The notes under the pieces are model-generated. The model was not told where the DNA came from. It ran no database searches and saw nothing but the letters and a program-made list of their open reading frames with translations. Shown here in pieces: positions 108-63,745 of a DNA stretch of 64,000 bases. The DNA comes from Metallyticus violacea (lineage: Eukaryota > Arthropoda > Insecta > Mantodea > Metallyticidae). Every line of letters begins with the position of its first letter. Position 1 is the first letter of the stretch. Location of the stretch: positions 27,642,001 to 27,706,000 of the forward strand of contig CM060831.1 in the NCBI GenBank assembly GCA_030762175.1, in the 5' to 3' direction. A program made the position numbers and the translations under genes.

Positions 108-151
108 TAGCCTGGCTGATGATGAGAATGAAATTTCTTGAAACTGGTTTT
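108..151 (+). ncRNA. Hammerhead-like ribozyme motif, PLE-A (left)
   Basis: CTGATGA at 116-122, a hairpin, GAAAC at 140-144, then TGGTTT. Stem II is weakened relative to the better copies (13518). Confidence 0.4.
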
Positions 152-2810: not shown

Positions 2811-2857
2811 TAGCCTGGCTGATGATGAGAAGGAAATGTTCTGGAAACAGTTCTATA
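2811..2857 (+). ncRNA. Hammerhead-like ribozyme motif, PLE-A (right)
   Basis: CTGATGA at 2819-2825, hairpin gag-aag..gttct-g, GAAAC at 2844-2848, then AGTTC. It follows the stop of the endonuclease relic. Confidence 0.45.
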
Positions 2858-3992: not shown

Positions 3993-6900
3993 CTGCAAAA
4001 ATTGCACAATAAGGTGAAAGATATGTGATGGATACCGCAATTTTCCTTCAAATGAAATTTAAATATAAACAACAGTAAAATCAATTACTACTATTCACTT
4101 TAGCAGAGCAAGTTTTAAATAACTATTTTTTGATGCACTTGCATCTTCTGTCTGTAAAACAATAAGAATGCAATAGATTGTTCAAGATGCAGCTTTAGGT
4201 TATTATATTTATGAAATGATTTATAACACTTCATCCCAATACCTCCAGATTTCCTGCAACTTCTAAAGATGAAAAGGCTTAAACACAAAGGACCATTTCT
4301 AGAGAATAAAAGTGAAATGGAGTTTGGCAGACTTAAGCTTGGGTGCATGGTTTAAGGAACTGAATGTCAATCACGTTTCTATTTAGTTTTGGAAATGGCA
4401 AATAATTTTCATTTTCATGAATTTTTATTTTCATGGACTGCATCACTGTTTACAGCTGTTTCCTTCCATTTTTGCACAATGTAACACTTGTTTATTGTTT
4501 AGGGGTTCAGTGTTGCTTTAATAGATTAAATTACTCAAGGTATGGTTATTTACATTCCCCCCTCTCTCTTTTAAACTCTATCAATTATTGTATTTCATTT
4601 ATAAGCATGGATACTTTGCCTAAGAGGAGTAAGCTTAGCATCTTTCTGTGATTTTAGTAGTAAGACCCAGAGACTGATAGTAGCTGAACATAATGTAAGC
4701 TTGGGTGCTGTTAATAACATATTAGGCAAGGAAGTGTGACTGAACAATTTTTCCTCAAAGAAAAAGGGATGTAGAGAAAACTACAGTGTTTTTCAAATAA
4801 AAAGCAATTTGGTTCATAGCAAGTGAAAAGTATGTTAGATGCAAAAGTTAATGGTATATGAAGGTTACCCAAACCCTGCATGGCAGCAGTGCCAAACTAA
4901 GTGGATGCACACGGACAGGAACTTTAAATATATTAGAGAAAGCCTCAGTGACCAGTTCTTGAGTTTTTAATAAGTTGGCACTTGATCTATACTTGGGACA
5001 AAATTATGTTTTTTAAAAATTATTCTCATTATACTACTTTGTCTATGCAATACTGTGTGTGTGTGTGCGCATAGAGAAAGCATTGTTACTTTGTTTTGAC
5101 ATTGTCTATGCAAGTGAACATAGGCACACAAACACACACTTATCTAAACTCTATCTATATTGCAAAGCAGAACTGCAAAATTTTTTGTGTACATATGCAT
5201 CTTGAAAGTGTATTATGTCAACCTCTTCATAGTTTGTATTTAGTTTACTGCTCAGTAGTGAGAATCCAGTGTGAATTAATGACGAATATCTCACTAACTA
5301 CAAACTTTACAGAATGTTCAGAATGTTAAGTTTTTCTGATTATAATACTCCCATAATTGTATTTTAAATATTTTTTGAGCACAAAATAGAAATGCTGCCC
5401 TCTTAATTAATAACGATAGCAAGAATGTACCATATCTGACAACACAGCAGAATACAAGTAAACATATGATTAGTGCAGCCTACAGTATGCCCTGTCTTCA
5501 TATGCTAATAAGTTTTGCATGTATATTAGTTGCAAAGTATTTTTACCAAACGCTTTAATATAAATTTGAATAGTTTCGGATTTTCACAGTGAAATAAAGT
5601 ATCATATTACAAATTATTTATGAGGAAGTCACTCAAATAATTTGTTATATTTTTACCAGATTTCCCTTCCTTCCTTACTGCTCGCTTCACAGTGCAATTT
5701 TTTAACTTCAAATGGTCCTGATTTTTAGTCATTGCACCACAATTAATAAACATGATTATAATCATAATGGTAAATGTGCCAGACTGTGTTTCTATTATGT
5801 TTGAAATGAAATATGTAATTACATTTCAACATAATTAAGATTATTATAAATGTAATTTTGAATGTGTATATTCACACACATATAGTAAAAATTGCAGGAT
5901 ATAATGGTTTCAATAAAGAACTAGTAGATAAAAAAGATGCAGATATTCAAAAAAGAAAAACAGATAAAGGAAATCAATACAATGTCATTGGTAAAGAAGA
6001 AGCAACAGTTTAAAAAGTTTACATACCACCCTTGGGCCTTCCAAAATTTCAAAATATTTTTAAAGAATTCAATGTTACCTTAGCTCCACAGAACAAGTAA
6101 AATATAAAGAATCTCATAACATACAACAGGTTAACAAAATTTCCCCAGAGAAGTAACCAGGAATCTGCTATATTAGCTGTTCAGATTGCAACAGAAGATA
6201 TTTGGGAAAACAAAAAGAAATTTAAACATTAGACTTAATTAATTGATATCATTGTATGATTCAGTTGAACTACACACTCTTAAAGCTTCACTTACTTTTC
6301 ATAAATTAATGGAACCGGTTTCGAGAACATTTAGTTCCCATCTTCAGCCAGGCTAAAGTTCAACTGTCGGATCATTCATTGAGCTGTGGGAATGTATATT
6401 CTGCTCTGGTGGCAGTGTGATAAACTTGTAGTTTATGTTTTCATCCCCGACAATGTCGAAGTTCATTATGCTGTCTATGTATTTGTAGATGTAGATTTTC
6501 TCCCAGGCTGCTAATTCCGTAGGTCCTTGTACTGATTTGAATAATTTTGCTTTATTTATTATGTCGTGATTTTGTGTCCAAAAATGATATGCTACTGCTG
6601 ATTTCTCTATTTGCTTGTACTTTATGTTCCTGAAATGTTCCTTTAACCGTGTGAATATGTTTCTCTTTGTTTTTTCAATGTAGATTTTTTCACATTCTGC
6701 ACAGTTTATTTTGTAAATACCTGATTTTTCTTCTTGTGGAATACTATCATTAACATTATCTATCTGTAAATTTTTAACATTAAATCTATTAATCGGTGCC
6801 AACCTGATATTAAAATCTTTAAGAATATTCTGAAATTTTTTTGTGGCCCATGGATTATATGTGAATTTTTTAAAAATTACCTTATCTTTTCTTGCTGAAA

Positions 6901-9900: not shown

Positions 9901-12900
9901 ATTTTTCACATTCTGTACAACTTATTTTATAAATACCTGCAGAAACATAGGCACATAGTTAAAAGAACATTTCAGAAACATAAAATACAAGCAGTTGGAG
10001 AAATCAACAGTGGACATGTCATTTCCGGACAAAACCATGGCATATTGAAGAAAACACAACTATTAAAATCAGTGCAAGGAACTACAGAATTAGCAACCTG
10101 GGAGAAAATGTATATTTACAGTTTAATGAACTTCTGGTGATGAAAACATAAACTTCAAGTTCATCATGCCCCATCAGAGCAGATTACAAATCCCCATAGC
10201 ATAACTGTTTATCCTCCAGTCAACAATGGGCTGACAATGCAAATGAAGGGTTCGTGAAACTGGTCTTACATATTTAAACAAGTAAGTGGAGCAAAAGTGT
10301 TATTGATATTGATACAGTTCAACTTTAGCCTGACTGAAGATGGGAACTAAATGTTCTTGAAACCAGTTCCAAACATTTAAGAAAAGTAAGTGAAGCTTTA
10401 AGAGTGTGTAGTTCAACTGAATCATACAATGATATCAATTAATATGATTAGCTTCACAGTATAAGTTCCAATTTACATTTAAGTTTTAAAAAGAGAGTTA
10501 CTTCGATTCAATCACACAATGATTTAATATATGATTAGCTTCACTGTGTAATGTCCAAATTAACAATTTTCAGTTAAGATGTATAATAATTATTAGTATG
10601 TTGTGATGAGTCAAACTACACACTCTTACAGCTTCAATAATTTATTTTTTATTAGAACATGTCCTCATCATTAGCTACTTTTCGACTGGTGGAAGGGTAG
10701 CCATAATCTTTGGAGGACATACTTATTATGACAACCCTTTTGACAGTGGACAAATAGCTGATGATGCAAATGTCTATGAAACATGTTCTAATGAAATGTA
10801 AGTTAGTGAAGCTGTAAGAGTGTTTAATTTGACTCATCACAATATATTAATAATTACGTTACTTGCTTCACTGTGATAGTTCTGAATGTATTTTATTTTA
10901 AGATGTATAATGTTATTAAATAACATGTACATTCATGATTTCAATCTTGTAAATAATACTCATGTTTATATGCCTCTTAAGAATAACCTAACTACTTATT
11001 CATTATTACAAAGAACTTTAATGTAATCTAAGAATGTGATCCCTTAGGCTTTGTGATGTTATCAGTTTGTACTTTTGTACATCCTAGCTCTTTTGTTTTC
11101 ATATTAGCTTAGTAATTACTGCAGCAGAATTGAAAATCCTCTATACTCCTACTTCTAGCACTGCATAATTTGGCACAGTTTCATTGAGTTTCTTAAAAAT
11201 ATAATATATAAGTCAGGTTTGATTTCATTTCTTTCTTTTTCATTTTTTGTGCTACCTTACTCTATTTCCACACATACACTCTTACATTTTATAAACCTGC
11301 TTGTCTGCATGGTCAGAGTCAGTGTTTAAGATTACTGTATGATTTTTAGGATCAGTTTTGTTTCTCAGGTTTAAGTCTTGTCTTGCTATTATTTGGACCA
11401 TGTTGCTTATAGTGGTGAGAATTATGGTGCCAAAACTAGCCTCATTTGCTACCTAAATCCAACTGCATACCTGCAGAGGAGCATATAACTAAAAGATCTT
11501 TCACAGCTGAATAACTTGCTTTAAATGGCTTATTCACTGACAATGTAAGCCAGCCATAACAGTAACTCCATCTATAATCATACATATTTTGGTGCATGTT
11601 ACAATCTTCAAATCACTCCTGTGAGCAGTAATGAATGTTTGCATTACTGTAAAGTGCTTATATTGCTGTTGTGCTTATAAAGTGCTTATACTGCAAAGTG
11701 TTACTGTTATCTGTGCTTAGTTATAGTTTTCATAATGCCTTGACTTGTGTACACATTACAAAAAGGAATTTGTATGTACAATTGTTATATGAAAAAAAAA
11801 AATTGTAGTGAAGTTACAAGGCATTTTTTAACAGAATATTAAAATGTACCTGGCCCTCATAGAGATATCACGTAAAGTAAATAAATTTGGAGAATCTGGA
11901 TCTATTCTCATTAAGTAGCAAAGTGAAGTGTAAGGCATGTGCTAACAAAGGAGAAGGCAGATGAAGTTGCTGAATGATTAGAACATTTAGCTCATGAATC
12001 ATTGCATTTGATTCAGGAAATTTCCAAAGATTGAACAATTAATAAGTGTATATGGGTTTGCATGATCCCTGATTTAACTGTATGCAAATTTTAAACACGG
12101 ATTTTTTTTTTTGATTGATTTATTTATGGATGCTCTTTAACAACTCAGGTCATCAGCATCCCATTCAACTCAGGGCGTGAAACTGCCAACAAATTTTGCT
12201 CAGAGGCCTCTCTTTCAGGCTTGAGGTTCTTTTTCGTGCAGTAAATGTACGGCACGGAACCCACTGCTTTACTTCCCTTCCGAAGAAAGCCATACTTAGG
12301 ATTTTTATGCCCGAAAAAATCCATCGGTCCTGGCCGGGTTCGAACCCACAATCTTGGGTTTAGGAGGCAAGTATGGTAACCACTACACCACCAGGACCGA
12401 CTTAACCACGGAGAACTTGAAAAATAAGACATATATAAAAAAAATACCCACACATTAGAGAAACTGGGAGAAAAAAAAAATCAGACGAGAAAAAAATTCT
12501 ATTTTAGCAGATTAATCAATGCACGTCAATGAAAATTTCCTTAAACAATGTCAGAAATGTTTGGATGGAGAACATTTCTAACATTGCCTGTCATAAACAC
12601 ATAGCATACATTTTATTCTTAATTAGATAGTGCATCGATTTAATACTCTTATGCTCGACTTAGCATAAAAGTATTAAATCGACTCACTATCTAATTCATT
12701 TAATTGCTTCACTATATAGTTCAGACACAAAATTAATAACATCTTATTATTATTATTATTATTATTATTGTAATTATGAGACCTTGATTCAGTTATGGGA
12801 ATATTATATCTGATTTGCTGGGAGTTTCTACTGTGACTGGCAGTCGACAAAATGTAATGAAAGACCCTGTGTATGCTCATTGTATAATTATCTCACATAT

Positions 12901-13069: not shown

Positions 13070-13701
13070 AAGCGTGAAAAACCAGGCAAGTCTCCAAAAG
13101 CAAATTTTACAGAAGAAAGAAAACAAAGTTTGGAACTGTCCCCAAAATTGTGAATTAATGTTTATTAAACAGTTTTTAGGGGGATATAGCATTTAAACCT
13201 GGTTTTTTCAAACAGAAATGTTTACAATTCATGTGCTCTGTAGTTTTTTTTTTTACCTAAATTGCTTTTTCTCTTCTGTTGCATACCTGTTTTGGTGACT
13301 TGACTATTTATGTTCATATTAAATAACACACTTTGAGTTGAACATTAACATTTATTAAAATGTAAATTTGAACTTGCACAGTGAAGCCAATCATGTAATA
13401 TTACTGTATGATTTAGTTGAATTACACACTCTTAATGCTTCACTTACTTATCATAATATACAGAACCGGTTTTGAGAATATTTGGTTCTCATCACCATGA
13501 ACTGAATTTTAGCCTGGCTGATGATGAGAACCAAATGTTCTTGAAACTGGTTCTATATATTATGACAAGTAAGTGAAGCGTTAAGAGTGTGTAATTCAAC
13601 TAAATCATACAGTAATAACAATTATGCGATTGGTTTTACTGTGCAAGTTCAAATTTATATTTTAATGAGAAAGTGAGAGTGAGAGTGAGTGTGCTTGTGC
13701 C

Positions 13702-13732
<31 letters not shown>

Positions 13733-16700
13733 ATATATTATAACTCTATAAACCTTTATTATATGGACACAGTGTTCATACCTGCTCCAGTCATATTTTC
13801 TCCAGCTAGACGTCCTGAAACTACAGCATGATCATGATGTTCTATATGACGTCGGCCAAGCTTAACATCATAAAAGCATGTACAGTCTCCTGCCTAAAAT
13901 AAGCAAAAACAATAATGCCGTGACCAATTACAGTCTACATTATACTAACACAAACATCCAGTCTTTGATGATTTCTGTTAGGTCAGATTATACTGAAATT
14001 ATAGAAAAAATTTAATATTTTTGACAGTTTATTTTGTATCATATGAAATTTAACATGCTGCACAAATAATAGAAATCATTGCTGGGATTTTCTTAGGTTC
14101 TAGCATGTTAATTTAAATTTTTTGCTAATGGGTAATACCTTTAGACTTAAATTTTTTAGAAACTTTTTTTTTTTATTTATTTTTTAAGCACATAAAGAGA
14201 TCCATATACTGCACTGCAGTTTTCTTTACAACAAAATCTCTCAAATATTTCCTCAGCATGTAAGAAATGAACATAAATTGCTCTTAACTTTAATTTTTCT
14301 AATACAAAAAGTGTTCAATACAGTGCTTTTTTTTGAAACATTAAATTAGTATTACTTACAATGAAAAATTTATAAAGCAAAGAATAAAAATGTAAAATAA
14401 TTAAATAATTCTAATAAAGCTAAGAAAAATGATCCATATTAAAATCTTGTGCACTCAAACACTGATTTATGTCTTGTCTATTAAGCATGTGCAATTGGTG
14501 GATGCAATTCCATGAATTACATGATATGCACTATTTTTCCAGTTTTTTTCTCTGTTACAAATGTATATATTCACTAATGATTTTATTTTGTGCTGAAATG
14601 GTAGACAAATGTGTGCACAATATTGTGAATTGCAGTGCTGGAAGAAGACAAGTGATCAGGAAAGTTTTAAATAAATTCTACATGCATACTAAATGCTGAT
14701 TCATATTTAAATAAAATTACATACAAAAATTCATTGCTCTGGAATCTAAGCATCTTCACAAATTAATGATGAGACTGGCAGAGGACAGGCTCAGAAAATG
14801 ACATGACAAAACGGAAACAGAGTTGAAGTACAGGCACTGCCAGCTGCCTAATAGCCTACACATAAAATACAAATATGAGGGTCATTTGAAAAGTTCTTGG
14901 AATGACCCACTGATTGCAGCAGCAGTTCCAAAGCAATTTTGTTATCAAAACCTGCCATCTTCCCTAGAAACATTTGTGCAGTAATGCATGGACTGATAAA
15001 GAAGGGTATAAATGACACAGAAATTCATATAGATATGACAAACACTAGGAACTCTGCATCATCATTTTCAACCATTTCCAAATGGACTACGGTGTTTAAA
15101 CATGGCAGTGTAAATATTGTACTTACGAAGCTGTTGACAATGGAGTGCCAATATAACCTCAACTTGAGTATTCATTTTTTATACTAAACTCCATTCACTT
15201 ACACAAAAGTAAGACGCGTTTCTGGAGAATCTCTCCCTTCTTCAGTTGCTCACTGAACCGCCGTTACTCGAAACTATGGCTGGACAAATGAATGTTCCTG
15301 TGGTGGCCTCTGTTGGTTGAAGTAGGAAGTTGCTGAGCTCATCCATAGGAGGAAATTTGAAATTCATTAGGTTTTCTCTATTTTTTAATATGAAAATTTT
15401 TTCCCAAGTGGATAACTCCAATGGGCTGTGAAGATGTTTCAGCAGTTTTATTCCCAGTTTTATTTCATGGTGTTTGGTCCAAAAGTGAGCTGCTACTGTT
15501 GAGCATACCTATACCGAAACTTATGCTTATACTAGAGAAATGGTGAACATCAATAAATTTAAAAACAGAAGAAATCGAAGGCTTATTAAAACTTACTAAT
15601 ATTTGCATTAAACAAAATTACTTCAGCTTCTACAAAAAATATTACCAACAAGTTTCAGGTCTACCTATGGGAAACCCTTTGTCACCTTTTCTAGCAGAAT
15701 TATTCATGAGCTCATTTGAAATACACATCACAAAAGCTGTCCCTTTAATTTTCAAGTCATGGTATAGGTATGTGGATGACATTTTTGCAATAATACCAAA
15801 GAAACACTCAACAGATGCCCTGAAACTTCTTAATTTGCAACATGAATCTATACAATTTACTATAGAAGAAGAAAGAAATGGGTGGCTACCATTTCTAGAT
15901 TTAAAAATTATAAGAAATGGAGATTGTTTGAATTTTGGAATTTACAGAAAAGAAACACACACAGAAAACTACATAAAAATAAGAGTTATAACCCCATTCC
16001 ACATAAATATTCAATTTTTCACAGTTTGGCACACAGATTGATGAATGTTCCACTCACAGAAGCAGAGTACAAAATAGAATACAAACAAATAATAAAGACA
16101 GTTATAATCAATGGTTTCAACAAAGACACAGTGATAAAAATTATCAATAAATCTAAAAGACAAAAAGGGATAAGGAAAGTTTCCACACTGAAAAACACAA
16201 AAGAAGAATATAAAACTCAAAAGTTTCACCTACCATCCAATTTACACAACAAGTTCAAGAAAATCTTCAAATCTTCAAAGAACATGGAATAATGTTAGCC
16301 CCAAAGAACAGATACAATATCAAGAATTTATTAGGTTGCACAGTAAAAGACTTCATACCACCAGAGCAGAAATCAGGAATTTACGAAACAAAATGTGCAG
16401 ATTGTGAACAGAGCTACATTGGCAAACCAAAAAGAAATTTGGAAATTCAGAGGAAAGAGCATTTTAGAAATATTCAGTTTAAACAGGTGGATAAATCAGC
16501 AGTAGCAGCTCACTTTTGGCCCAAAAACCATGAAATAAAACCGGAAATAAAACTGCTGAAACATCTTCACAGCCCATTGGAGTTATTCACTTGGGAAAAA
16601 ATTTTCATATTAAAAAATAGAGAAAACCTAATGAATTTCAAGTTTCCTCTATGGATGAGCTCAGCAACTTCCTACTTCTACCAATAGAGGCCACCACAGG

Positions 16701-19700
16701 AACATCCGTTAGTCCAGCCATAGTTTCGAGTAACAGCGGTTCAGTGAGCAACTGAAGAAGGGAGAGATTCTCCAGAAACGCGTCTTACTTTTGTGTAAGT
16801 GAATGGAGTTTAGTGTAAAAAATGAATACCCAAGTTGAGGTTATATGCCAGTGTAAGTTTGGAACATAACCCAAACACGGGATGACCAAACTTCATAATG
16901 ACATCAGAAATTATAAGATCATGACATAGTTCTGGAAGATCGATGATTAAAGGTGTCTGAAATTGCTGAAGCTTTGGGCATTTCAGTAGAATGCATTTCA
17001 CCTTTTTGTGCTTGAAAAAACTATTGGCAAAATGGGTGCTGCAACTGTTAACTCAGGATCAAAAGCAAATCAGAGTAATTTCTCAGCAAAGTTTGCTCCG
17101 TTTTCAGAGATCCCGCTGATTTTATCCATCTATTTGTCATCAGTGATGAAACATGGGTACACTATTACATGCCTGAAACAAAACTGCAGCCTAAACAAGG
17201 GAAGCATAATTCTCCACTGGCAAAGAAGGCCAAGTGCATGAAATAGGCCTGGAAGAACATGTCAATTTTCTGAGATTCCAGGGGTATACTGCTCTATGGT
17301 TATCTTCCCACTGGAACATATTATGCTAATCTTTTGGACCTAATGCAGACAAAAATATTCAAGAAAATGTCGAGTTAATCAAAAAAGAAAGTCATCTTGC
17401 ATCAAGGAATGTTCATTCTCACATATGTGTGTTGCAGTGGCAAAAATCAATGAAGTGGGGTATGATTTGCCACCACATCTGCCTTATTCCTCTGGCTTGA
17501 TTCCATTGACTTACATCTGTTTCCTAAACTGAGAAAATTCCTTAGTGGAAAGAAATTTTCGTCTCTTCAATTGTGGCTTATTTTGCAAGCATGGAGGAAT
17601 CTGACCTTTGTGATGGGAAAAGGGCTTTGAAGCAATGCTAGACAAAGTGCATTAATGTCAAGGGGGGCCATATTGAAAAATAAGAATAATTTCTAAATGG
17701 TATGCCATCATTTTGTGCTTAATACCCAGAACATTTTAAATGACCCTTGTATTTATTCAAATTTAAGAATATTTCATTTAAATTGAAAGATTTTTAAACA
17801 TCATAATAGACTTGTCTTAAACAGAAATGAAATAGAAATTTTTTCTTCTTACCTAATGCTTTAGCCATTAAAGGCCTTTACTTAGATTGAACATGATTTA
17901 ATAGATTTTTTTCAGATTCTAAATGTAAGTCAAAGGTGGAAGTTGACGCACCTCCATTTCCCCTCTCTTTAGAGTCAGTACTTTGGCAATCCAATACGAT
18001 TTGAAGTTATTGCCTTTTGAGATCAGATTTTCATGCACTTAAGCTCATATACATTTGTTTCTGTAACTATGAGAGCTACTAAATCCGCAATAAAATACTG
18101 TATAAAATCAACTGATTGACTGTCACTGATGAGCTGCGCATGAGGCTGTGCACCATTGGTTGTACTACGAAAAATGTGTCTTTTTGTGCCGCAATGATTT
18201 TTGGAATTCATAACTCTGTCTTAGTAATTGAAACCATGATTCAAAGTGGGATAACAAGTTTGTAACTATGTAATTTCTTGCCAAGTGAATTCTGCCTCAT
18301 TAGTATTTAACTGAAATGAAAATATTCCCAATAAACAAATCCAAACATATGGTGCCAAAAACAGATTCCAGTATCAAGTTGCTTATTTGTCCATCTCAGC
18401 AGCTGAAAAGTGTATAACTGACCTCAATATAACAAGTTAAGCTTATTGTGTCATGCAAACGCAATCATATGATTCAACCACTTCGTCTACAGCCACATAA
18501 GTGCTATATATAAAAACCTACTCTGTACAATGATGAAGTGTGTGCGGCTGCTTTGTGTTATGTCAAAACTTCAATATTTATTACGTGCTGTATGCTGGCT
18601 CAGCTAAGAGCTTGCAATGCTTATAAACATGGGTGTTGTATGTAGTAGTGTTCGAGAGAAAAAACTAGAGAACTCTTTTAGCTCCACAAATCGCAATCGG
18701 ACATGTAAAATATACTCCAAAATTGAAAGTTCCCCCCCCCCTTTTTCCTTCTCTCTCTGTTTGCAAATAAATACAGTAATACTTGTTGTATTTAATTCAT
18801 TCATTGCACTTAAAGTCCTTCAATTCAGTTTTCGTTTCATTAAAATATAATAAATAAGCAAAATATTTAAATCATATAAATTATTTTTTTTGGCTCTAAT
18901 GATTCATGCCTTTAATTTAATGGTTTGTTCTGCAATGCAGAAATTTAAATTGGGGACCATTTAAATACTTAGATCTGTTTATTGGATATCCGGAAACAGT
19001 CAGTGCGGGGTTTAAATGACCATCGGGCAATGGATTATAATACCATCTTAGGGGAGAAAAATATTATTGATAACTTTGATTATTTACAAAATGGTAACTT
19101 AAAATATTTTTTGGTTGCATGAAATACTCCTCATATAGGAGATGTGAGGGGTAAGGTATCTTTTTAATGCTAACCTGAACTTGTTTTATTAGTATGCAGT
19201 TCTTTTATAGATTATGGAAGTGAATGAAATAATATTAAACACCTTCTTGCAGTGCCTGTAATTTGTTATTTGGTCTGTGTTAAGTCCTGCCTATATCTGG
19301 TTTCTTTATTGTATATATTGAGCTTTTCATGAATACTTCCGAATTGTCTACTAAGAATAAAAGTACAACTGCAACTAGAATGTACTCACAAGCTAATGGT
19401 AAAATTCCAAATGTTTAAATATTGGTTTACAATGAGTCCATCATTTTGCTTCTGCCATTATTCTTTATTCTTATTACTCTCTTTTGCATAGTAAATATTT
19501 TTTTAGCATTTACTGAATTTCCTCAGAACATCATTCCATAAGTCATTAAGCATAATATACTGTTTTTACTTACAGCCCAAAGGTTGGATCTTGCCATAAG
19601 TTCAGCATTAACAAGGAAACCACCATATTCCTCATCTAACTCTAATGAGGAGGTTTCTGCAAGTTCAGTATTCGGATCTACTCCAACTGCAACCACAACA

Positions 19701-19898
19701 TGTGCAGCTTTAACCTGCAATGCACCCCAATGAATAACAATTATGCACTGTGTATCATACATACATGCACATACACATCATATCCTTAAATGTAAATTGG
19801 AACTTGCACAGTGAAGCCAATCATATTAATTGATATCATTGTATGATTCAGTTGAACTACACACTCTTAAAGCTTCACTTACTTTTCGCGTGCGTGCG

Positions 19899-19937
<39 letters not shown>

Positions 19938-22900
19938 ATGTATGTATGTATGTATGTATGTATGTTTTCATAAATTTATGAAAAGTAAGTGAAGCTTTAA
20001 GAGTGTGTAGTTCAACTGAATCATACAATGATATCAATTAACATCATATCCTGTTTACAGGTTACAGATATAAAAAAAAAAAAAAAATGGTTTTAGTGCA
20101 TCATCTCACAATAAAACTACTTTTAAAAAACAGAGGAGGGAAAAAAAAAAAAGGCAAAGAAAAGCACAATACATTCAGAATGTGTCAAAATATGAAGCCC
20201 ATGACTATGGAAGATCATCACGTTAAAATGGATTATTTCTAAACTACACATGTGATCAAACTTATTCAAACTTTACCAAAAGTCATTTGAATGAATGACA
20301 TAATTGTTAGTTAGTCATCTTGCCTTGAAGAGTAAAGGCTTTGAGGGTATGATACTGTGCAATCTAGCAAGCAGTTAAACAACTAACACAACTACATTTT
20401 GCAAACAAACTTGAGTTAGAACTATGATGTGGTAACAGTCAATTTATTTCTCTCTCTTTCCCTCTACAAGGCACACTCCCAACTTCCACAGCAACTTCTC
20501 ACAACTAGATCAACTAATTATTCTGATACAAACTCACTCCACAATAGTGATGTCATTCATTTCAAATAACTTGAATAAATTTGATCATCCAGCACATTTC
20601 AGCTGGTACCAAGTTTGATTTGATTTTGTCAAAAGTCAGTCATCATTGAATACTCTGAAACAGACATAAATTAAGGAGTTAATGCTATCAGGAATCAGTC
20701 AAAATAATTAGGACCTTTTTGGAAAAAATCATTTTATTCCTTTTCATGCGAAAAGGGCTACATAATTTATTCTGCATCTTAAAGTTATTGTTTTCTCTAA
20801 TACATTAATTTCTCTTGTCTTGCTCTCAAGGATAGGCTTATAGCCCATTCCCGCTTCAAACCATCTTTCAAAGGGTCTTCTTATATTTCCCTATCCTATA
20901 AGTTTATAATCATTGGTAGTCACCATTTAACATATAGTCCATATGTAGTTTTCAATTATTTCTTTGTTACCATACTATTCTTTATTGAAATTTTCTCAAG
21001 TCATTTCCTATTTTGCTGTCTGGGACTGCCCATAAGCAAACAACCTTAAAGCTTTCAATAATTTCATTCCCATTGATTCTATTTCACTTTCCTCCTGCTT
21101 TTTATTGGCCCAAGTCTCACTACCATATAATAAAGTTGATACTGCTAAAACCTAATAAACTTTCAGATTTGTCTTTTCTTTTAAAATGCTTTCTAATCTG
21201 CTTATTTTTATTGTCTAACTGTCATAAGATATATGAACTTCTAGTAAATAGGCCATTAAGCAAATATGCTAAAGAAACAAAGTCTCAAGGGGCAATTCAC
21301 TCAAAATCACATGGACAGGCTCCCCATGCTAGTAAAAACTAGGAGGCCCTTGCCCTGCAGGGATTGCATGAGTGTATTATTATTATCATCGTCATACTTT
21401 TTATTATATTCACATACTAATTCCATTCAAAGCATTGAACACTTTTTATGGAATAAAATGTCTTTGTTTGCTAGGCTTGCCTTTCCATTTTTTTTTGATT
21501 GATTTATTTATGGACGCTCTTTAACATCTCAGGTCATCAGCATCCTATTGAACTCAGGGCATGAAACGGCCGACAGATTTTGCTCAGAGGCCTCTCTTTA
21601 AGGCTTGAGGTTCTTTTTTGTGCTGCAAATGTACGACACGGGACCCATGGCTTTACTTCCCTTCTGAAGGAAGCCATACTTAGGATTTTTACGCCCGAAA
21701 AAATCCATCAGTCCTGGCCAAGTTCGAACCCGCGTTTTTGGTTTAGGAGGCAAGTGTGGTAACCACTACACTACCAGGACCGACTTGCCTTTCCAGTTAG
21801 CTAGGTTATTCAGGAAAATGTTTTACATGCCATGCTATTGAGGTATCATGCCATATAGTACATTTCCATTTTTTTACCAGACAAATGATGGGAGAGGAAT
21901 ATGGGTATAAGCAGAAAAGTGCTTAACTTTGGATTAGTAACCAAACATTTAAAATACTATAAGATAGTAAAATAATCATGCAAATATTTATATTATTAAA
22001 CACAGACAGTTTAGTAAGAATAGGTTAGAGAATAAAAATAAAACGTGAATGCAGTTTTGCTGATTTGTAGGTTTTATGTGATTTGTGACTATTATTTGTA
22101 CTTATTTAAGAAATAATATCCATTACTAAACAGAATTACATTTTATACTATTCATCTTTAGTCCTTGTAGACGGTATTCACAGAAGATAAGCAAACGTGT
22201 CATATAATTGATATTATTGTATGATTTAGTTGAACTACACACTCTTAATTAATTTAATTTTTACCCATGTCATAAATCAATATTTTCTGTTTGTGCATGT
22301 AAAAGCATCCATTTGGTATGCCATATAATTATTTCTGAGGAATGTGTTGATGGCTAAATATTTTCTGCCTCTAGAACATTGCTTGTTCAACACTGTTTAA
22401 GTCTAAAAATATATATAAAAAAAAATAATTTTCACTGAAAGTGACAATTAAGCATAGCATTTAAATAAAGTATTTTATTTTAAGTGAATAAAGGTTGATC
22501 AGCTTAAAAACATTATTGTACAAGGACATTTTTCCCTGAATAGTTTTTAATGTCTGTTTTACTACTGTAACATCACACTATGGACACTTTATTTTATTAA
22601 TTCAATCACTGATTATGTTCAGTTTATACATCTTGATTCATCAGTTTTTACATCTAAGATTTATGCTTGCATCACTACAACATGTAAACACTGTGCATGC
22701 ACATACAAAGCTCTATAACTTGGTTTTAAAAATATTTATGCAGCATAAAAATTATAATCTCTCATGAGTTGAGCGGCACTCTAATACAATGAACTAACTG
22801 TAGTTCCACTTAAATGAGATTTACTCTGGACATATGTTTCTTGGAACTATCATCCACATCATCAGCTGTTAAATGACTGTTAGATCATTCGTAGTAGCTG

Positions 22901-25900
22901 AGTAGATAGGTTTCCGGATTCTGGTTGATTCTGATGGTGTAGTGATAAACTTAAAATAAAGTGCTGTCTGCTTCCAGAATGTCAAAATTCATATGGTTAT
23001 ACTCATGTTGTTTTATATAAATCCTTTCCCATAAGTTAAGTTGTTTTGGTTGTTGAATAGTTTTTAATAACTTGATGCCTTTTTCTATTGCATGGTTTTC
23101 ATTCTAAAAATGTGCTGCCTCAGCTGATTTTCTATTTGTTTGTAACGGATGTTTCTCCAATGTTCCTTCAACCTAATGCCTATATTTCTCTTTGTCTTTC
23201 CTACATAGATTTTTTTCACAATCCTTACAATTAAGCTGGTAAATACCAGATTTTTTCTCTTTGGGCCTGGAATTTGTTTTGTTTAATTAATTTAAAGCCT
23301 TAGTGATGTGCATCTTTTCCCCACATTTTTAAGGTTTGGCACAGAAATGTAGACGATATATTTGCTATTATAAACAATAAACATGTGGAAGATGCACTAA
23401 AACTTTTAAACCTGCAAGAGCCTTTAATTACATTCACTGTCGAAACGGAAAGAGATAATATGTTACCATTTTTAGATCTGAAAATTATAAAATGTGTTAA
23501 TAAACTTGAATTTGGCATCAATAGAAAGGATACACATGGAGACAACTATATCAAAGCCCAAGGTTTCAATCCAAGATCTCATAAGGAAGCAGTGTTCAAC
23601 AGTACGATATACAGACTAATAAATATACCACTGAGCAAAGAAGAATACAAGAATGAATATCTACACATAATAGAAGCAGTTAAATCCAATGGGTTCAACA
23701 AACAGGTGATTAACCAAAAAATCCAAAGATTCCAGAAATAAAAAAAGAATTAAACAAATAACAACTTTGAGTGATTTGTCGGCAGAAAAAAACAATTAAA
23801 AAGTGCACTTACCACAGCCAATAAGAAATTTCAAAAAATTTTCAAGCAGTACATCATCATCTTAGCATCTCAAAACCGATATAGTGTAAAAAATTTATTG
23901 AAATTAAACAAAACAGATTCCAGGCTCAAAGAGAAAAAATCTATTTATCAGATTAATTGTAAGGATTGTGAAAAAAATCTATGTAGGAAAGACAAAGAGA
24001 AAGGCATTAAGTTGAAGGAACTTTGGAAAAACATCTGTTACAAACAAATAGATAAATCAGCTGAGGAAGCACATTTTTAGAATGAAAACCATGCAATAGA
24101 AAAAGGCAAAGTTATTAAAAATTATTCAAAACCAAAAGAACTTAACTTATGGGAAAGGATTTATATAAAAAAACATGAGCATAACCTTATGAATTTTGAC
24201 ATCCTGGAAGCAGACAGCACTTTATTTTAAGTTTTCACTAGACCACCAGAATCAACCAGAATACTTACCTACCCAGCAACTACGAATGATCTAACAGTCA
24301 TTTAACAGCTGATGATGTGGATGATAGTTCCAAGAAACATATGTCCTGAGTAAATCTCATTTAAGTGAAACCATAAAGTGTGTTTTAAACATCCAACTCA
24401 GAAGAGATTATTAATTGGTGCTTTACTGTATTCGATTCCAAATTGAATTATTATTAAAATAACTTGTAGCATTTTGTCTATAGGCAAGGCCTTGATGCCT
24501 TCTGTGGATATCATACAATGACATTGACACAACCATAAGGTCTCCTTAATTATTTTAAAATGCTTTATTTACCAACTTAATAAAATAGTACTGAAACTAG
24601 CCACTGTTAACCATACATTTTTGGTACCTCTTTAAAAATCTATCTAACACTGTAGTTTGCATTCAATAGTGCTGGCTACTTTCTGCTGAAAATTTTGTTT
24701 AAATTCTTCCAGGGTGTATGGGTCACAAAGGTTATTACTATTAATTATTAAGAATTTGTCCCTCAACCTTTATCTCTGGCATATGTTCAAAAAAACTGTA
24801 TACAAGACAAACCCACATATCCTCAAGAATTGAAACAAAATATCTGAAATAGCCAGCGTTACTCAATGTGAACTACAGTGAATGATGGACAGTTTTTAAA
24901 GAGGTGCCAAAAATGTATATGAAAGTCACCAGTTTTGACCCCTCCTTTCATAGAGTTGGTATGTAAAACCTTTTAAAATAGTTAAGGAAATATTGTATGA
25001 TTGTGTCAGTACCACTCTGCAATACCCACAAATAACGAGTTTTGTCTTTAGGCAAAACACTGCATGTATTAATAGAAATTCTGAATCATCAAACAATGTT
25101 AACTTTAACAATGTGTTAAAACTTCATGAAGTTAACATCACATTTCCTTTAAAAGTTTAACTAGTAACAATTCAAAAATGGCAGCCATAAATTCAGCTGT
25201 TATGTTGAAATATTTTGGATGTATACACCTCTTACACCAGAAAAAGAGGTGTAAGCTGTAGTGAATTTGAACTTTTTATGGTAAAGAGTAATTTTTACAA
25301 AAATACAGAATATGATAAAGTCATCATAGGATTGTAGACGAAATATGAGAGAGGTTAAAATACTTTTATGTCTCTGCTCCTTTTAATACTCCTTGCATGA
25401 GCTATTGATTTAATTGCTCCATGGAAACAAAAGTACATTGGAGTGCATTCAAAAGTTCGCTCAGTTATGACATGGCTTCTTGATCCGTTCTATTTGCAAT
25501 ATTCAAAAACTTAACATGTTAATTAACAATATGGTTGAAAAGCTTGACGGAATGTAGGAGTCTTGAGAGAGATTGGAAAATTTTTATGCCTCTGCCTCTT
25601 TTACTACTCCTTGCATGAGCAGTATGCTTTAATTATTCTATGCAAACAAAAGTATATCAGGATGCATTCAAAAGTCTTTCAGTTGTGACATGCCTTCTTG
25701 ATCTATGCTATTTTCAATAGGAACCGTAACATGTTAATTAACAATGTGCTGGAAAAAAAGCTTAGTGGAATGCAGGAGTCTTAACATATTGTTACAATAT
25801 TAATACAATGTTCACAAACAACATGCTAGTGTACTTTTAACATCTGTTGATGAAACCAACCCTTAAGATTTTATCATGACAAAAGGATCATAAAACATGT

Positions 25901-28900
25901 CCTGATTAAATCTTAAGTGAAGCTTGGAAGAGCATATTTTTCAAATAATTTGACTCTAAGATCATTCATGTATGTTTCAATGTGTTCGTTTTAAATTTAA
26001 TTAATAAATTAAAAGTCCAGGTGTCTTGTATATAATGGGCTAAAAATGGGATTTGAAGTGAAAAGTATTTAAAAAAGCTATTTGATTTTTTTAAAGAAAA
26101 ATTTCTTAATGTTAACTAAATAGAGTCTGTGGAATTATATTAAATTAACCTATGATGCAAATGAACTTATTACCTGATGGCTCCTGTTCAGAATTAGCAA
26201 TATCTTTGCAATAACATAAACAAGTTATCTCCTGGAAATGAAAATATAAGGTGCCACCTAATGTTACATACTAGTCAAAAAAGAAAATACTCTTAGACTC
26301 TGTTTAATTTATTTTCTTGCAATGTTTTGATTGACTTCAGTTTCTTTCAAGTTTTAAAATTGATAATTTTATATATACAAAAGAGGGGGGAGGGAAAAAA
26401 AAGAAAAAAAAAAATGTTATATTATTTTATATATTCAATCAATCTTCCTTTTTGAAAAAAAATTCTAATCAATAGGTGTAATATCTATTTATGAATTAAA
26501 AAATAAGCTTTTACTCACATTGCTTCCATTACTCAGGCTAAGAATAACTTTATCACCACTCAGTGAGACATCTTCAACCTCAGCATTGTTGATTATGCTC
26601 ACCCCTTCAGCTTTAACTTTATTGGTTGTCCAAGAACTTAAATACTCAGGCAGTACTTTCGCCATGTTACCAGGCTCTCGGTAGATTTGATGAACTGTAA
26701 GTTTTCCTTTGCCTCCTGAAGAGATTATAATAAAATAATATTAACATTCACGACATAAAGAGAGTTGGTAGTTATCCAAAATGTTTAATGAAAAAAGGGG
26801 GGGATACCAATGTATTTTTACACTTGGAGCTATATTAACAAAGTTTTGTGCTGCATAACATAGGTGGTTTTGTTGCCATGCTACTCTTTAATTAACCAAG
26901 TACAAAACATGCTGACGTTTTTTTGAATGGCTGGAATTTTCACAGCGAAATATAGTATAATATAATAAATTATTAATGAGGAAATCACTCAAATTTCACT
27001 TATTTTGTTCTACTTACTTGGACATGTTTCAAAGGCTGTTGCCTTCATCTTTAGCACGAAACATGTCCAAGTAAGTGGAACAAAATTAGTGAAATTTGAG
27101 TGATTTCCTAAATAATAATTTGTTATATTATGCTAGTGTTTATTCATCTAGTTGAATTAAGTCACTTGGTTTTTCTTTCTTTAAAGAGAAAGTTTTTAAC
27201 ATTATCCCCTTTCTCCTCATTGCAATTAAGCACTGCCAATTAGTAATCTAACATGCATTAAGCTTCCTTCAGTATTATGAGCATCGAAAGAGATAAATAT
27301 ATTTCTCTGTTCCTTGCCAAATACAAATCTTTAGTTATGTAAACAGCTACAATTGCACACTTTGGAACATAACCAAAATTATGTGAATGAACTGCACTCT
27401 TCAGCATTTATACTATCCACTCATATACTGCACACTCAAATTTTTAGTGCATCATTTGGGAAAATAAGTGTTTTGAAGATAAAAATCTTTCAGATATACT
27501 TTTTATAAAAATATTTATAACTATTATAATAAAAATTAAATAAATAAATTTTAATGCTGATAATACATTTTCTGCTTCCATTCTTATTTATTGACAATAT
27601 GAACAGTTCACAAACTTATAATTAAAAAGACAATGTTACCAATAATGAAATGGAAAAAAGAACTTTCATAAGCAGTTGATAATACACTATGATCATATTA
27701 TTACTGCAAAAAGCCCTTGCATATTTTATGCATTTGGCTTTTTGAAGAAGAATAAATGCAGAAAGAATGTCCATTGTTAAAATATATTACCTATTGTACA
27801 TGTCTATTGGAAAAGCATGAGTCAAAAATCTTTAGAAAAATTTCTATAAATATCATGTCAAAAGATGTGAATGAATTCTCAGAAAATAATAATATATTTA
27901 TTTACTTGTTTTTGTTTTGTTTCTGACTTTGGAAAGTTATTTGCACAAAACTAGAAAAGTGGGCTTTGTATTAAATCATTATCCTGCATTTTAATGAATT
28001 TCTAATAAAAAATAGTAATAAGCTTTGTTACTTACGCCTTGCCAAAGCACAAGCTAATTCACTACCCAAGAAGCCACCACCAACTATGGCAAACTCCTTC
28101 GCACCATCATTGATTATTTCATTCAGTTCTTCAAAATCACGTATCCCTCTGTACAAAGAAACTTTTTCCTGAACTGCTGATGAAGCATTTTTGAATACTG
28201 GAAGATTTTTTGGAGTAGACCCTGGAATACAAATTTTGCTACAGAATAATGAAATAGACATTAACAAAATGCACTGAACACTTCTTTATACATTTTATAT
28301 TCTTAAATATATATTTTTAGGAAAGGGGAAAAAATAAGTTTTTAACTATTACCGACTTATTGTCCTAAATTTTACCTTAAATGGAGAAATAATGCTAATA
28401 TCATCACTGCAAATAACTTAAAGATATTTAAACAGTCCATACAGTTTACTAGCTAACCAGGATTATGAAAAAATGAAAACAGATCCCATACAAAAATATA
28501 TCAGTACAGTAAGAAAACTATTAACAAATATAACAATTCTGAGTGAGGAAGAAAAGAAGAATATTATACCAGACAACTCTACAACACTTAGAATTTATGG
28601 CCTATCTAAAATACATAAACCTGGTAATAAAATGAGAACTATTGTAGACACAAAAAATTCACCCACATACAATTTAGCCAACTGCCTTTTAAAAAAATGT
28701 AATACCTTACCAAAATAAGAAAGCCAAAGTATAAGGAACTCATCAGAATTAATAGATAAAATCAGACATGTAAAACTAAAAAAGAGGGATTTGCTCATTT
28801 CTTATGATGTGGTCTCTTTGTTTCCTAGCAACCCCAAAGAAAATCTAATTAATATTATAAAGAAATGGCTAACCTCAATAAACCTACCTGGAGAAGTAAT

Positions 28901-31900
28901 AGAACAATATCTGAACCTCACCAAAATTTGCATAAATCAAACCTACTTCACATTCAGGCAATAAATAGTTAATACACAAAAGAAGAGTCTAGTAATGGGA
29001 AACCCACTTTCCGCCATTCTTGGCGGATATGTGCACGAGTTTTTTGGAAATTAAATTAATTGAGGCTTTTCCACATATATATAAATGTTGGCACCGTTTG
29101 TTGATTTTTTTTTTGAATTGTGTTTAACGCCCGTTTTTACTACTGAGGCACCACAGGCTGTGGACACTGATGATACATTAGATGAAATGATATATTGGGA
29201 AAGGATTATTTTTTTAAGGAAGCATTCCAAGCCCTAGTTTAGGGTACCTCCCCGGCATTTGCCAGTAATGAGGACTGAGGAAAACCTGGAAAAAACCCCC
29301 AGTCAGGGAGGAGACGGCCCTGGTGGGATTCGAACCCCAGACCTGCCGTTCACGAGTCCACGCCTTAACGACCTCGCCCACCCATGGCGGTACCGTTATG
29401 TTGATGTCTTTGCAATGGTAAATAAAAATGGAAAGAGGAAGAATAAAACTACCCAATCTACAAGACAGGACTATTAAATTCACAATGCAATTAGAAAACA
29501 ACAAGGTTCTTCCCTTCTTGGATATAAAAATTATAAAAAATTACAATATACTGGAATTTGGCATTTTCAGAAAAGATAACCAACACAAATAATTGTATAA
29601 AAAATAACAGCCACAATTCAAAACAACATAAACTAGCCATAATCAACAGCCTCACATTCAGATTAACAAACTTGCTAATAAGCAAGGGAAAATACAAACT
29701 GGAGTACCAAAAAATCATAGATATAGCACAGAAAAATGGCTAATCTTGTCAACAAGAAAATAGAGAAATTCACAAAGAATAAAGGACATCACCACACTAA
29801 AAAGCTACAAAGGAGATATATAAAAAAAAATTCACATTCCACCCATGGACATACCAAAAATTCCAGAATATTTTTAAAGAGGCAAACATCATTTTGGCCA
29901 CTGTAAATAAATTTAGTTTAAAAAAAAACCACTTAAATACATACACAAAAGACAAAATTCCACCAGGAAAGCAATCAGGCATTTACAAAATTGGTTGCAA
30001 AGACTGCGACATGAAATACATAGGCCAAAAAAAGAGAGAGAGAGAGAGAAACAGAAAAAGAAAGAAAAAAGAAAAAAAAAGAAAGAAATATTACCATACA
30101 TTTTTAGGAACACATGAGAAATGTAAAATATATACACACAGAAAAATCAGCAGTGGCAGACCATTTTTGGACGGGGGAAAAAAACAAAAACAAAACAAAA
30201 AACAAACAAAAAACAAACAAACAAACAAAAAAACAACAAAAACAACAAAAAAAAAACCACACACACAAATTCCAAAAGGAACCAAAACTACTGAAGGCTC
30301 TTCAAAAACCCATAGAATTAACAGTATGGGAAAATATATTTATAAACAAAAAACAAAGATTTTTTGGTTAACTTTGATCTCCCAAACAACAGTTACCTCA
30401 TCAATAAGTTCGTTAAAGCCACAGAGCGACATCTTAATACCACACTGGGAAGTAGCCAGTGGGACCAAGCTGAAGATGGAGGCAAACGCCTTTTGAAACA
30501 TGTCCAAGCAAGTGGAACAAAATTAGTGAAATTTGAGTGATTTCATAATAATTTGTCATATTATATTTCTTCTCTATTTCAAATTTTAGAAAAAAATGGG
30601 CATTACCTTGTGGGAGGAACCATTTCATAAAAACTTCTCTGCATTGATTACAGACAACTTAAAATGTTTTATTTCTGGTAAGTTAATGAAACATAATATA
30701 CCTGTAGCAATGAGGCACTTATCATAATGGATTTCATAATCATCCTCTAGTATAGCCTTTTTCTCTGCCACATCAATTTTTTTAACAGTCCAACCTCGAA
30801 CAACCGCAACTCCACCATTTTCTTTTGTTGTTAGGGACTTGCAATCCACATAAAAATCTTCAGGTTCATAGAAAATGCTGGAAATAAGAATGATCATGCT
30901 TATAGGTACACAAAAAGAATAAATAAAGATCTTTCTTTTCATTTATTCAATCACATTACAAAAATGTAATATGACATTTTTGTATGACATTAACACATTC
31001 ACGGGCAATTCCATGTGAAATAGGATAGAAATTTTGAAAAATTGACCCGATATTTTTCAAATTGAATTATTTTTTTTATATTACAGCATATAAGACAAAT
31101 TATGAACAAAGATCAGCTACTGAAATGCAAAAACCTGGATGATGATGACGACGATGACGACAGTATTGTATTGGGAAGCCAGAAGATAAATGATGCAAAT
31201 CTTCAATATCAGCCATTAGAAACCCACCAACATATAAAAACAAATGTTTTTGTGAAAGATGACATCCCTAGGTTTAATAGTTTACATACAAAAATTTGCC
31301 AGTTGCATATTATTATTATTATTAATATTTATAATAATTTCTTTGATTCATTTCAGCCAACTATGGGCTATGATTACACAACTTACTTCTCTTTCGCAAG
31401 CTGTTTCCTCTCACAAATTCAAATACATATAACTAGCATTGAAGAAAAATATATTTTGTTTTTAATAAGACACATATATCTTATAGAGAAATCTTAAAAT
31501 ATAAATAAATAAAATAGAAATTTGAAAATACCTCATTTTAAAGTTCCTAACTTGCTGAAAACGATTTACACCATAATTATTCATTTACAAGATTAGAAGA
31601 AATCTGTTTTATGCATGTTTAAATGATTTCTCCACAAATATAAAGAAAAATAAAAATGTGGCAAAAACTGCAAATTATTAGACAAATAAATATATCTTTC
31701 AGATTTATGCTCCAAGGTAATAAAAACAGGATTTTATATCTGGGCTTTACATCTGTCTTTTATACCAACAGAGTTAAACACATCCAGAATTCTCAAATAA
31801 AAGCAGTACAGCTGACTTCTCACTTGGTCCCATATGACCATATGTGAATGCAACTAACAAATCCCAAGTATTCCAAATATAATTTAACAAAATAATTTTT

Positions 31901-51904: not shown

Positions 51905-52110
51905 TATCTGGGATTTTCACAGTGAAATATAGAATAACATAACAAATTATTATTATGAAATCACTGAATTTTCACTAATTCTGTTCCATGTTTCAAAGGC
52001 GTTTGCCTTCATCTTCAGCCTGGTCCCACTGACCCATGTTCAAGTAAGTAGAACAAGATTAGTGAAATTTGAGCGATTTCGTAATAATAATTTGTCATAT
52101 TATCCTTTGT
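51905..52110. mobile_element. Solo PLE-E inverted pair
   Basis: Arms from ggattttcacagtgaaat to tttgtcatattat, mirrored. Minus-strand hammerhead CTGAAGA (52018-52012), stem II GAAGGC-aaac-GCCTTT, GAAACATG, with the GTC of the cleavage site deleted. Confidence 0.75.
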
Positions 52111-60794: not shown

Positions 60795-61065
60795 GTACTA
60801 ATTGATATCATTGTATGATTCAGTTGAACTACACACTCTTAAAGCTTCACTTACTTTTCATAAATGTATGGAACCGGTTTCAAGAACATTTAGTTCCCAT
60901 CTTCAGCCAGGCTAAAGTTCAACTCAGTTGAACTCAACTCAACTCCATACATTTATGAAAAGTAAGTGAAGCTTTAAGAGTGTGTAGTTCAACTGAATCA
61001 TACAATGATATCAATTAATATGATTGACTTCACTGTGCAAGTTCCAATTTACATTTAAGTAATAC
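60795..61065. mobile_element. Solo PLE-A inverted pair with hammerhead in the left arm
   Basis: Left arm from attgatatcattgtatgatt to the hammerhead (minus strand CTGAAGA 60906-60900, GAAACCGGTTCC), a short cagttgaactcaactcaact spacer, then the right arm to caatttacatttaag. Confidence 0.8.
60868..60920 (-). ncRNA. Hammerhead-like ribozyme motif, PLE-A solo pair
   Basis: CTGAAGA, extra T, stem II GGGAAC..GTTCTT, GAAACCGGTT. Confidence 0.5.
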
Positions 61066-61700: not shown

Positions 61701-61761
61701 ACCACTTGTTTGTTATAACAAATTATTATTGAGGAAATTACTCAAATTTCACTAATTTTGG

Positions 61762-61825
61762 TCCACTTACTTGGACATGTTTCAAAGACTGCTGCCTTCA
61801 TCTTCAGCAGTGATTCCACTGTCTG
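61762..61825 (-). ncRNA. Hammerhead-like ribozyme motif, PLE-E left arm
   Basis: CTGAAGA (61807-61801), stem II GAAGGC/GTCTTT, GAAACATGTCC, then aagtaagtgga. Confidence 0.5.
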
Positions 61826-63107: not shown

Positions 63108-63165
63108 CAGTGGAATCAATGCTGAAGATGAAGGTAACAGCCTTTGAAACATGCCAAGTAAGTGG
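63108..63165 (+). ncRNA. Hammerhead-like ribozyme motif, PLE-E right arm
   Basis: CTGAAGA at 63122-63128, stem II AAGG/CCTT, GAAACATG with the GTC altered to CC, then aagtaagtggaac. Confidence 0.45.
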
Positions 63166-63559: not shown

Positions 63560-63745
63560 GTTAATCTTATTTTGATTTAAAGTAAAACACTAAAAATCAC
63601 GTCGTTTTGGTTGACAATGTGAGGAATGTACCTCATGAAACATGTTCCAAAATTACTTTTATAAGTGTGTTTGTGAAACTTAAAGAGAGTTTTATTGTGA
63701 CGACATTATTTTTAGTGTTTTACTTTAAATCAAAATAAGATTACT
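63560..63745. mobile_element. Solo inverted pair, family K, with decayed hammerhead
   Basis: Arms aatcttattttgatttaaag and ctttaaatcaaaataagatt. Centre TTGACAA, TG, TGAGG-aatgta-CCTCA, T, GAAACATGTTCC: the same frame as the hammerheads with stem II intact but the core mutated (plus strand, 63608-63655). Confidence 0.6.

Follow-up and report, generated by a model that had tools for sequence, protein, structure and literature searches.

Candidate minimal type I hammerhead ribozymes with covarying stems in Penelope-like elements of Metallyticus violacea

Background

Hammerhead ribozymes are known from Penelope-like elements (PLEs) of other animals; the earlier note on the DNA studied here stated this, and it is already in print (PMC7761336). 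The literature cited here places minimal type I hammerheads in the pLTRs of PLEs and suggests that they may cleave as dimers (PMC7761336; PMC6155905; PMC7229834). Such motifs are credited there to Cervera & De la Pena 2014 and Lunse et al. 2017, and a passage of PMC7761336 calls their role 'still a mystery'. A coral is reported to have over 6,000 type I motifs, which fall into 16 families (PMC7229834).

In PAc, the Poseidon element of Anolis carolinensis, the hammerhead overlaps the start codon at stem II. Protein-assisted cleavage of this hammerhead was shown, and cleavage was not needed for insertion in vitro; zero RNA-seq ends were seen at the cut site, and both DNA strands were extended in vitro (PMC11167929). 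As described in parts of PMC3846280, the Penelope element of Adineta vaga has, like the elements analysed here, inverted pLTRs and short target site duplications, together with an optional 31-bp tail on one inverted pLTR that resembles the one-sided tail found here. Its palindromes lie at mostly head-to-head junctions and were read as the result of self-priming; hammerheads are not named anywhere in the main text (PMC3846280).

According to excerpts of PMC7229834, the satellite and retrozyme hammerheads of newt and axolotl have a very short helix III and are more active as dimers. The stem III most like that of the present copies is found in the axolotl type, which retains loop-loop contacts together with a palindromic tetraloop; unlike the PLE copies described below, the newt and axolotl hammerheads are not attached to an RT gene (PMC7229834, same excerpts).

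Here we analysed a 64-kb stretch of the Metallyticus violacea genome, from here: the window (C2:27,642,001-27,706,000; C2 is a 172-Mb sequence in an assembly of 2.32 Gb). Its GC content is 31% and PLEs are abundant throughout. Two 300-bp copies at 12104-12403 and 21488-21786, 90% identical, each include a minus-strand segment that resembles a tRNA, at 12326-12397 and 21710-21780; this repeat is probably a tRNA-derived SINE.

Methods

Positions refer to the window unless another sequence is named. Hammerhead-like motifs were searched with the pattern CTGANGA-N4..25-GAAAC and with a covariance model (R1) built from 19 chosen copies. At E≤1, R1 gave 59 matches over 344 kb, of which 20 fall in the window, 6 in L001 and 33 in the left 80 kb. 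Of these, 52 were carried into the copy-by-copy counts (the n=52 figures); the low-scoring matches at window positions 10231, 58235 and 63611 and at L027:655, L027:5455, L001:4904 and L033:44 were left out. For family G, 80 matches were scored from 123,631 first-look candidates; they were 98-100% identical with zero internal stops. Target site duplications were read by eye in three family A copies and four family G pairs.

Hammerhead motifs in the window and extent of the cluster

The earlier note, made from the sequence alone, had placed a hammerhead-like motif at 13509..13556, and all parts of it were found there: the core CTGATGA at 13518-13524, an extra T at 13525, stem II GAGAAC/GTTCTT at 13526-13531 / 13537-13542, GAA at 13543-13545, stem III at 13546-13551 and T as H17 at 13552 (Table 1). 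Stem I is formed by TGG 13515-13517 with CTA 13553-13555, with one wobble among three pairs, and cleavage is predicted after 13552. The left arm of the palindrome that surrounds this copy bears a partial inverted copy of the same hammerhead. The order of core, hairpin, GAAAC and stem III, said to recur across families, does so: the pattern matches 16 times in the window, compared with a mean of 0.45 and a largest value of 2 in 100 dinucleotide shuffles. Family K, listed in the note as decayed, was confirmed as such at 63611, where pairing is intact in stem II (TGAGG/CCTCA), in stem III (ACATGT) and in the 6-bp stem I (TTTTGG/CCAAAA).

Table 1. Hammerhead copies and carrier features in the window
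Feature	Coordinates	Strand	Details
Family A hammerhead, 5' side of tandem unit 116 to 2819	116..148	+	direct repeat 30-218 / 2733-2921
Family A hammerhead, 3' side of tandem unit 116 to 2819	2819..2852	+	stem II partly decayed; R1 21.5 bits
Family A hammerhead, stem III ACCGGT	6314..6347	-	ORF stop TAG 6353-6355 just upstream of core
Family A hammerhead	10334..10367	+	R1 match
Hammerhead-like copy, shortened stem II, stem III ACATGT, stem I TAG/CTA	10758..10786	+	R1 26.8 bits
Palindromic tail-out element without ORF around the 13518 hammerhead	13354..13666		self-blastn 84.6%
Family A hammerhead (site of the earlier note)	13518..13552	+	core CTGATGA, 6-bp stem II, GAA, stem III ACTGGT; R1 46.0 bits
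Family B hammerhead on inverted arm, stem III ACGCGT, extra base A	15214..15245	-	R1 match
Family B hammerhead at the 3' end of the B element, with A as extra base	16752..16783	+	R1 match
Family D hammerhead on inverted arm, stem III ACATATGT	22832..22865	-	R1 match
Family D hammerhead	24309..24342	+	R1 match
Family E hammerhead in palindromic fragment, core CTAAAGA, decayed	27022..27054	-	R1 match
Family E hammerhead	30470..30503	+	231-codon frame stops at TGA overlapping GAAAC
3' tail arm of window G copy, short tail	37294..37372	-	100% inverted repeat with 39008..39086
Family G hammerhead	37364..37396	-	stem III ACTAGT; A9 triplet ATA, not ATG; stem I GGAA/TTCC
Family G PLE reading frame, RT + GIY-YIG, 5'-truncated	37365..38984	-	539 aa, RVT_1 E 2.3e-11, GIY-YIG E 1.9e-5
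Inverted tail arm of window G copy	39008..39086	+	long tail continues outside arm
Family E hammerhead, stem III decayed (ACATGG)	51986..52018	-	R1 match
Family A hammerhead in palindrome	60873..60906	-	11-bp flanking repeat AATACAGTACT, read by eye; R1 match
Family E hammerhead on inverted arm of palindrome 61714-63213	61775..61807	-	R1 match
Family E hammerhead	63122..63154	+	R1 match
Family K hammerhead	63611..63645	+	decayed core TTGACAA; R1 18.5 bits

In the left 80 kb the pattern matched 20 times, including L031:721 and L030:4764, which R1 missed. The right 200 kb held five pattern matches, three of them hammerhead-like and all within the first 6 kb; the other two do not exceed chance, for which ten simulations gave 0-3 per 200 kb. 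Because R1 matches occur in the window, in L001 and in the left 80 kb but none in L002-L020, the 190 kb to the right beyond L001, the hammerheads form a local cluster that ends on the right near C2:27,711,300. Genome-wide, 39,957 exact matches to the pattern with an extra T were counted, compared with 117 for the reversed-pattern control. The comparison with Rfam hammerhead models that the earlier note had proposed as a check came out negative: no Rfam hammerhead family matches the window at E≤10 and none matches L028:4600-5400. A genome search with RF00008 gave no match, but because the control genomes gave none either, it does not count as evidence.

Pairs of hammerheads on opposite strands were observed at L028:95-182 and L028:5134-5244, one convergent 22 nt apart and one divergent with 45 nt; both strands therefore encode one.

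Covariation of stems II and I

When the one base after CTGANGA stays unpaired, stem II consists of six pairs with a weak closing pair, which in 35 copies was G·U 16 times, G·A 8 times and G-C 8 times. The stem II pairs that the earlier note named for families A, B, D, E and G are present as it gave them. A single copy is weak evidence, with shuffle p-values for stem II of 0.006-0.16 in the copies of these five families and 0.91 in the one at 10758; the support comes from comparing families. At stem II positions 2-6 of the five families, 24 of 25 pairs are standard, and when arms were swapped between the families only one of 120 pairings reached the observed score, which was the true one. In a 19-row alignment of copies hand-chosen out of 39 pattern matches, 92% of the stem II cells are paired and covariation is 0.736 versus 0.373 for shuffled rows (0/500), and sliding the 3' arm by 1-3 columns gave scores of at most 0.308. 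Counts of double-change pairs (82/500) and of further pair types (45/500) did not stand out against the shuffles in this alignment. Among unselected genome copies, namely the first 100 listed of the 39,957 matches, 75 of them distinct and all on contig C1, 313 of 375 stem II pairs were found versus a shuffled maximum of 264 in 5,000 shuffles; read without the bulged base, the same copies gave only 206 of 375. Judged from the sequences, the hammerhead reading of the earlier note and its claim that stem II covaries between families are supported and become stronger.

Two features were absent from that note, a covarying stem I and the extra base after CTGANGA. Stem I has 28 of 33 Watson-Crick pairs over 11 families, with families and H17 position set by hand, and 0 of 20,000 shuffles reach this value. 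Its variants are GGAA/TTCC, TGG/CCA, CAG/CTG, TTGG/CCAA, TGCAA/TTGCA and TAG/CTA, and pairing is weakest in family B2 (1/3) and in families B and E (2/3 each).

An extra base and an AUG in the core

Of the 39 pattern matches, 35 have a clear stem II, and one unpaired base follows CTGANGA in every one of these (35 of 35); the base is T in 32 copies and A in 3. A canonical hammerhead has zero nucleotides between A9 and stem II (G10.1-C11.1), and most copies here may differ from the published minimal type I hammerheads of PLEs in the U at this place. Genome counts, which cover T, A and no base, gave in addition to the T-bearing matches 813 for an extra A (control 191) and 710 for the canonical core without an extra base and with a next base other than G (control 378). 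De la Pena & Flores reportedly described in 2001 that the hammerhead of the chrysanthemum viroid CChMVd is active with an extra core nucleotide, A, next to CUGANGA; in this viroid, an unrelated element, the extra base is A as opposed to mostly U here.

Together with G10.1 the extra U makes an AUG that starts at A9, so that the core reads CUGANG-AUG. An AUG is found at A9 in 46 of 52 R1 matches; the genome counts are the better evidence for it because R1 was trained on AUG-bearing copies. The PAc ORF starts at the hammerhead AUG (PMC11167929), whereas here the reading frame from A9 closes after 1-58 codons, the triplet at this position is ATA in the window copy of family G and AAG in family B, and the main ORF of family G lies further downstream. 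The cut site is 26 bp after the start codon in PAc (PMC11167929), and the predicted one is 28 nt from A9 in families G and E.

Analysis of these counts suggests that the extra U may be kept because A9-U-G10.1 is an AUG, in which case the core would double as a start codon. A bolder proposal, possible in our eyes and yet rather doubtful, is that the extra U exists since the core is a start signal too, with the hammerhead as a switch between translation and template. Translation from the core AUG, which has an A at -3, would unfold the ribozyme and protect the RNA. Untranslated RNA would instead pair through the palindromic stem III and be cut 28 nt after the AUG, and the cut RNA would lose the start codon and, at the 3' copy, the RT-priming tail.

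A GTAAGTG(A/G)A-like box lies 1-25 nt past the model match, for example at 60849-60854 on the minus strand of the window and at L028:4774-4779 on the plus strand. GTRAGT occurs within 45 nt in 34 of 52 R1 matches versus 2.8% of random places. The box resembles a splice donor or an RNA signal of the PLE, and it may be a donor that joins a first exon to the main ORF. The frame from A9 is open up to the box in 22 of these 34 copies, compared with 15 and 15 for the other frames and 44% at random, and in 9 of 10 chosen family representatives; as sequence evidence for a donor that would end a coding first exon this is only suggestive.

As a separate observation, families A, B, D, E, F, G and K share a recurring CAGT some 10-24 nt before CTGANGA. 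It is found within -24..-9 in 22 of 52 R1 matches versus 5% at random, and families G, E and A place it, by eye, in different frames with respect to the coding end.

Stem III and the cleavage triplet

A palindrome follows GAA in 27 of 43 hammerhead matches, compared with 16 of 410 other GAAAC occurrences in 154 kb. The palindromes include ACCGGT, ACGCGT, ACATGT, ACATATGT, ACTAGT and ACTTAAGT. The stem III list of the earlier note needs one correction: in the window, the ACCGGT that it gave for family A occurs only at 6318 and 60877, and the stem at the site it described is a wobble palindrome. In the 27 copies with a palindromic stem III the triplet is GUC in 15 and GUU in 12, and the base after the palindrome is C or T in all 27, which is the NUH triplet of hammerheads; the core blocks CUGANGA and GAA(A) stand in hammerhead order, and the stem III is of the diminished, palindromic form of the minimal type I PLE hammerhead.

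The predicted secondary structure is that of a hammerhead with a stem III that would suit two copies pairing together. A loop-less palindrome of 6 or 8 bases is not expected to form a stable stem inside a single molecule; two copies on the same tandem transcript or on two RNAs would pair through stem III, and cleavage after GU(C/U) would yield a 2',3'-cyclic phosphate and a 5'-OH. We infer from the sequence that the RNA folds, cleaves and acts as a dimer. RNAcofold predicted the stem II hairpins with an intermolecular stem III for families A and D; for the other five of the seven families folded (B, E, F, G and H) its best structure was a different one. To our knowledge, tertiary contacts between loop I and loop II are absent in minimal PLE hammerheads.

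Carrier elements and coding ends

With the 539-aa family G protein as query, tblastn found further PLE copies across the window. The family G frame has 1,661 protein homologues; among the 120 listed, most carry the same Pfam RT + GIY-YIG domains, arthropod proteins show 37-41% identity and the best matches reach up to 62%. Viral contigs contained no relatives at the protein level, and the bacterial and archaeal contigs gave five distant RTs (27-30% identity), which were set aside. PLE copies of family G that are 98-100% identical in protein are found, for example, at C16:47912625-47916275 and C5:50292233-50295754.

The pLTR holds the hammerheads, with the coding end on one side of them and the 3' tail on the other, and the elements have direct or inverted pLTRs with an optional tail and target site duplications. 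Several palindromic copies have no ORF (13354-13666, 60796-61020, 55602-55757), as would be expected if the hammerheads belonged to small non-autonomous retrozymes with short tandem repeats instead of PLEs. We regard this as very improbable, in view of the hammerheads of families A, B, D, E and G that are joined to PLE reading frames and of the ORF-less copies themselves, which share family A tails and, at 60796, 55602 and 19785, have flanking direct repeats. The ORF-less palindromic family A tails of the window are those at 19785-20047, 55602-55797 and 60796-61060; their flanking direct repeats of 11-13 bp (AATACAGTACT, ATTTGTAATACTA and ACATCATATCCT) were read by eye as target site duplications.

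The place of the coding end varies between families. The family G ORF stops with TAG inside stem III in the window copy, in 8 of 8 3' ends of pairs and in L065, whereas the stop is at GAAA in family E and before the core in family A. Overlap of the motif with coding ends (G, E), its location at inverted-repeat junctions and stem III palindromes that could be DNA sites would also agree with conservation of the motif merely as DNA or protein, that is as a coding end, an endonuclease target or foldback DNA, rather than as a ribozyme. Such an explanation has very little likelihood in our judgement: the coding end is placed differently in each family, yet the RNA pairs are kept by double changes, and in its unpaired blocks and its NUH triplet the motif matches a hammerhead.

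Insertion structure of families G, A, B and D

Among the 80 scored matches of family G, all of which reach the last residue before the stop in stem III, 18 pairs of neighbours lie within 20 kb, and 18 of 18 are head-to-head with tails outward. Ten of 12 fetched junctions are palindromes whose arms, 135-521 nt long, match perfectly and enclose spacers of 13-112 nt; one of the remaining two is palindromic through its centre (420/420 bases, 99%) and the other has unequal arms that share only 52 nt. The two outer ends differ in length in 4 of 4 pairs, one reaching 106-109 nt past the cut site and the other 60-67 nt, and a short direct repeat of 6-12 bp, read by eye, is common to both flanks. This head-to-head palindromic structure is known in kind from Adineta in the passages cited; unlike there, the G palindromes are numerous and nearly identical (PMC3846280, in part). 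PAc resembles family G in having two 3' end positions, one of them with a longer tail; RT in PAc starts about 85-92 nt after the cut, compared with the 60-67 or 106-109 nt at which G insertions end (PMC11167929). Inverted arms are also seen in the window in the elements of family B (15151-15502 / 16496-16846, 95% identical) and family D (22803-23288 / 23902-24371, 92% identical).

In one copy, coding end, hammerhead and tail stand in direct order before an 834-aa frame, and an inverted tail precedes them. Every inserted copy that keeps the coding end, the hammerhead and the tail together would therefore stem from template RNA uncut at that 3' hammerhead. This is in line with the insertion in vitro without cleavage reported for PAc (PMC11167929).

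An origin of the short inverted arm from hammerhead-cleaved RNA was mostly not supported, as most arms cross the site or stop elsewhere. An inner arm end at the cut site was seen in the family A copy 60796, where the arm opposite to the hammerhead 60873..60906 starts within 1 nt of the predicted cleavage site, and within 2 nt in the single G copy L058. In the rest of the eight G singles there was one without a junction, three inner ends lay in the ORF, one in the tail and two about 18 and 43 nt inside the cut site; in the window copy the inner end is about 10 nt inside. That each arm derives from an RNA of its own may be so but was not supported: in two unequal-arm copies the arms are 100% identical, along 336 and 327 nt, while departing from the window copy by about 0.9%, which fits one template or snap-back copying. 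The arms of a third unequal-arm copy differ at 2 of 278 positions, no less than they do from the window copy.

Family G looks recently active, to judge from its sequences. Its preservation bears on whether the copies are decayed relics of a ribozyme that mattered in an ancestor and is not functional now. Some cores are indeed broken, with 8 of 52 copies examined departing from CTGANGA and an H-like family reading CCGAAGA or CCAAAGA, and cleavage of the anole element is dispensable in vitro (PMC11167929). We nevertheless consider the relic explanation quite unlikely, given that 8 of 8 fetched family G 3' ends keep the core and stems I, II and III, that every scored G match runs to the last residue before the stop and that exact cores are so many genome-wide.

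Conclusions

With a probability of roughly 0.9, the motifs in the window are minimal type I hammerhead ribozymes of canonical (GIY-YIG-bearing) PLEs, located in the pLTR. This assignment rests directly on the conserved core, on covariation in stems I and II, on a palindromic stem III whose sequence varies, on the NUH triplet and on the location in PLEs, together with about 40,000 genome matches. Compared with the published minimal type I PLE hammerheads, as far as the cited sections describe them, the copies are alike in their pLTR site, diminished stem III, thousands of copies and proposed action as dimers. Because papers already describe minimal type I hammerheads in the pLTRs of PLEs, the hammerhead is of a kind already known, with interesting details such as the extra U.

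With about 40,000 pattern matches and many families with covarying stems, the function of these hammerheads becomes approachable by comparison. The AUG-making extra U, the stop inside stem III of the young G family and the insertions from uncut RNA each narrow the possible role of the ribozyme in PLEs, and the core AUG and the young G family are the most useful leads.
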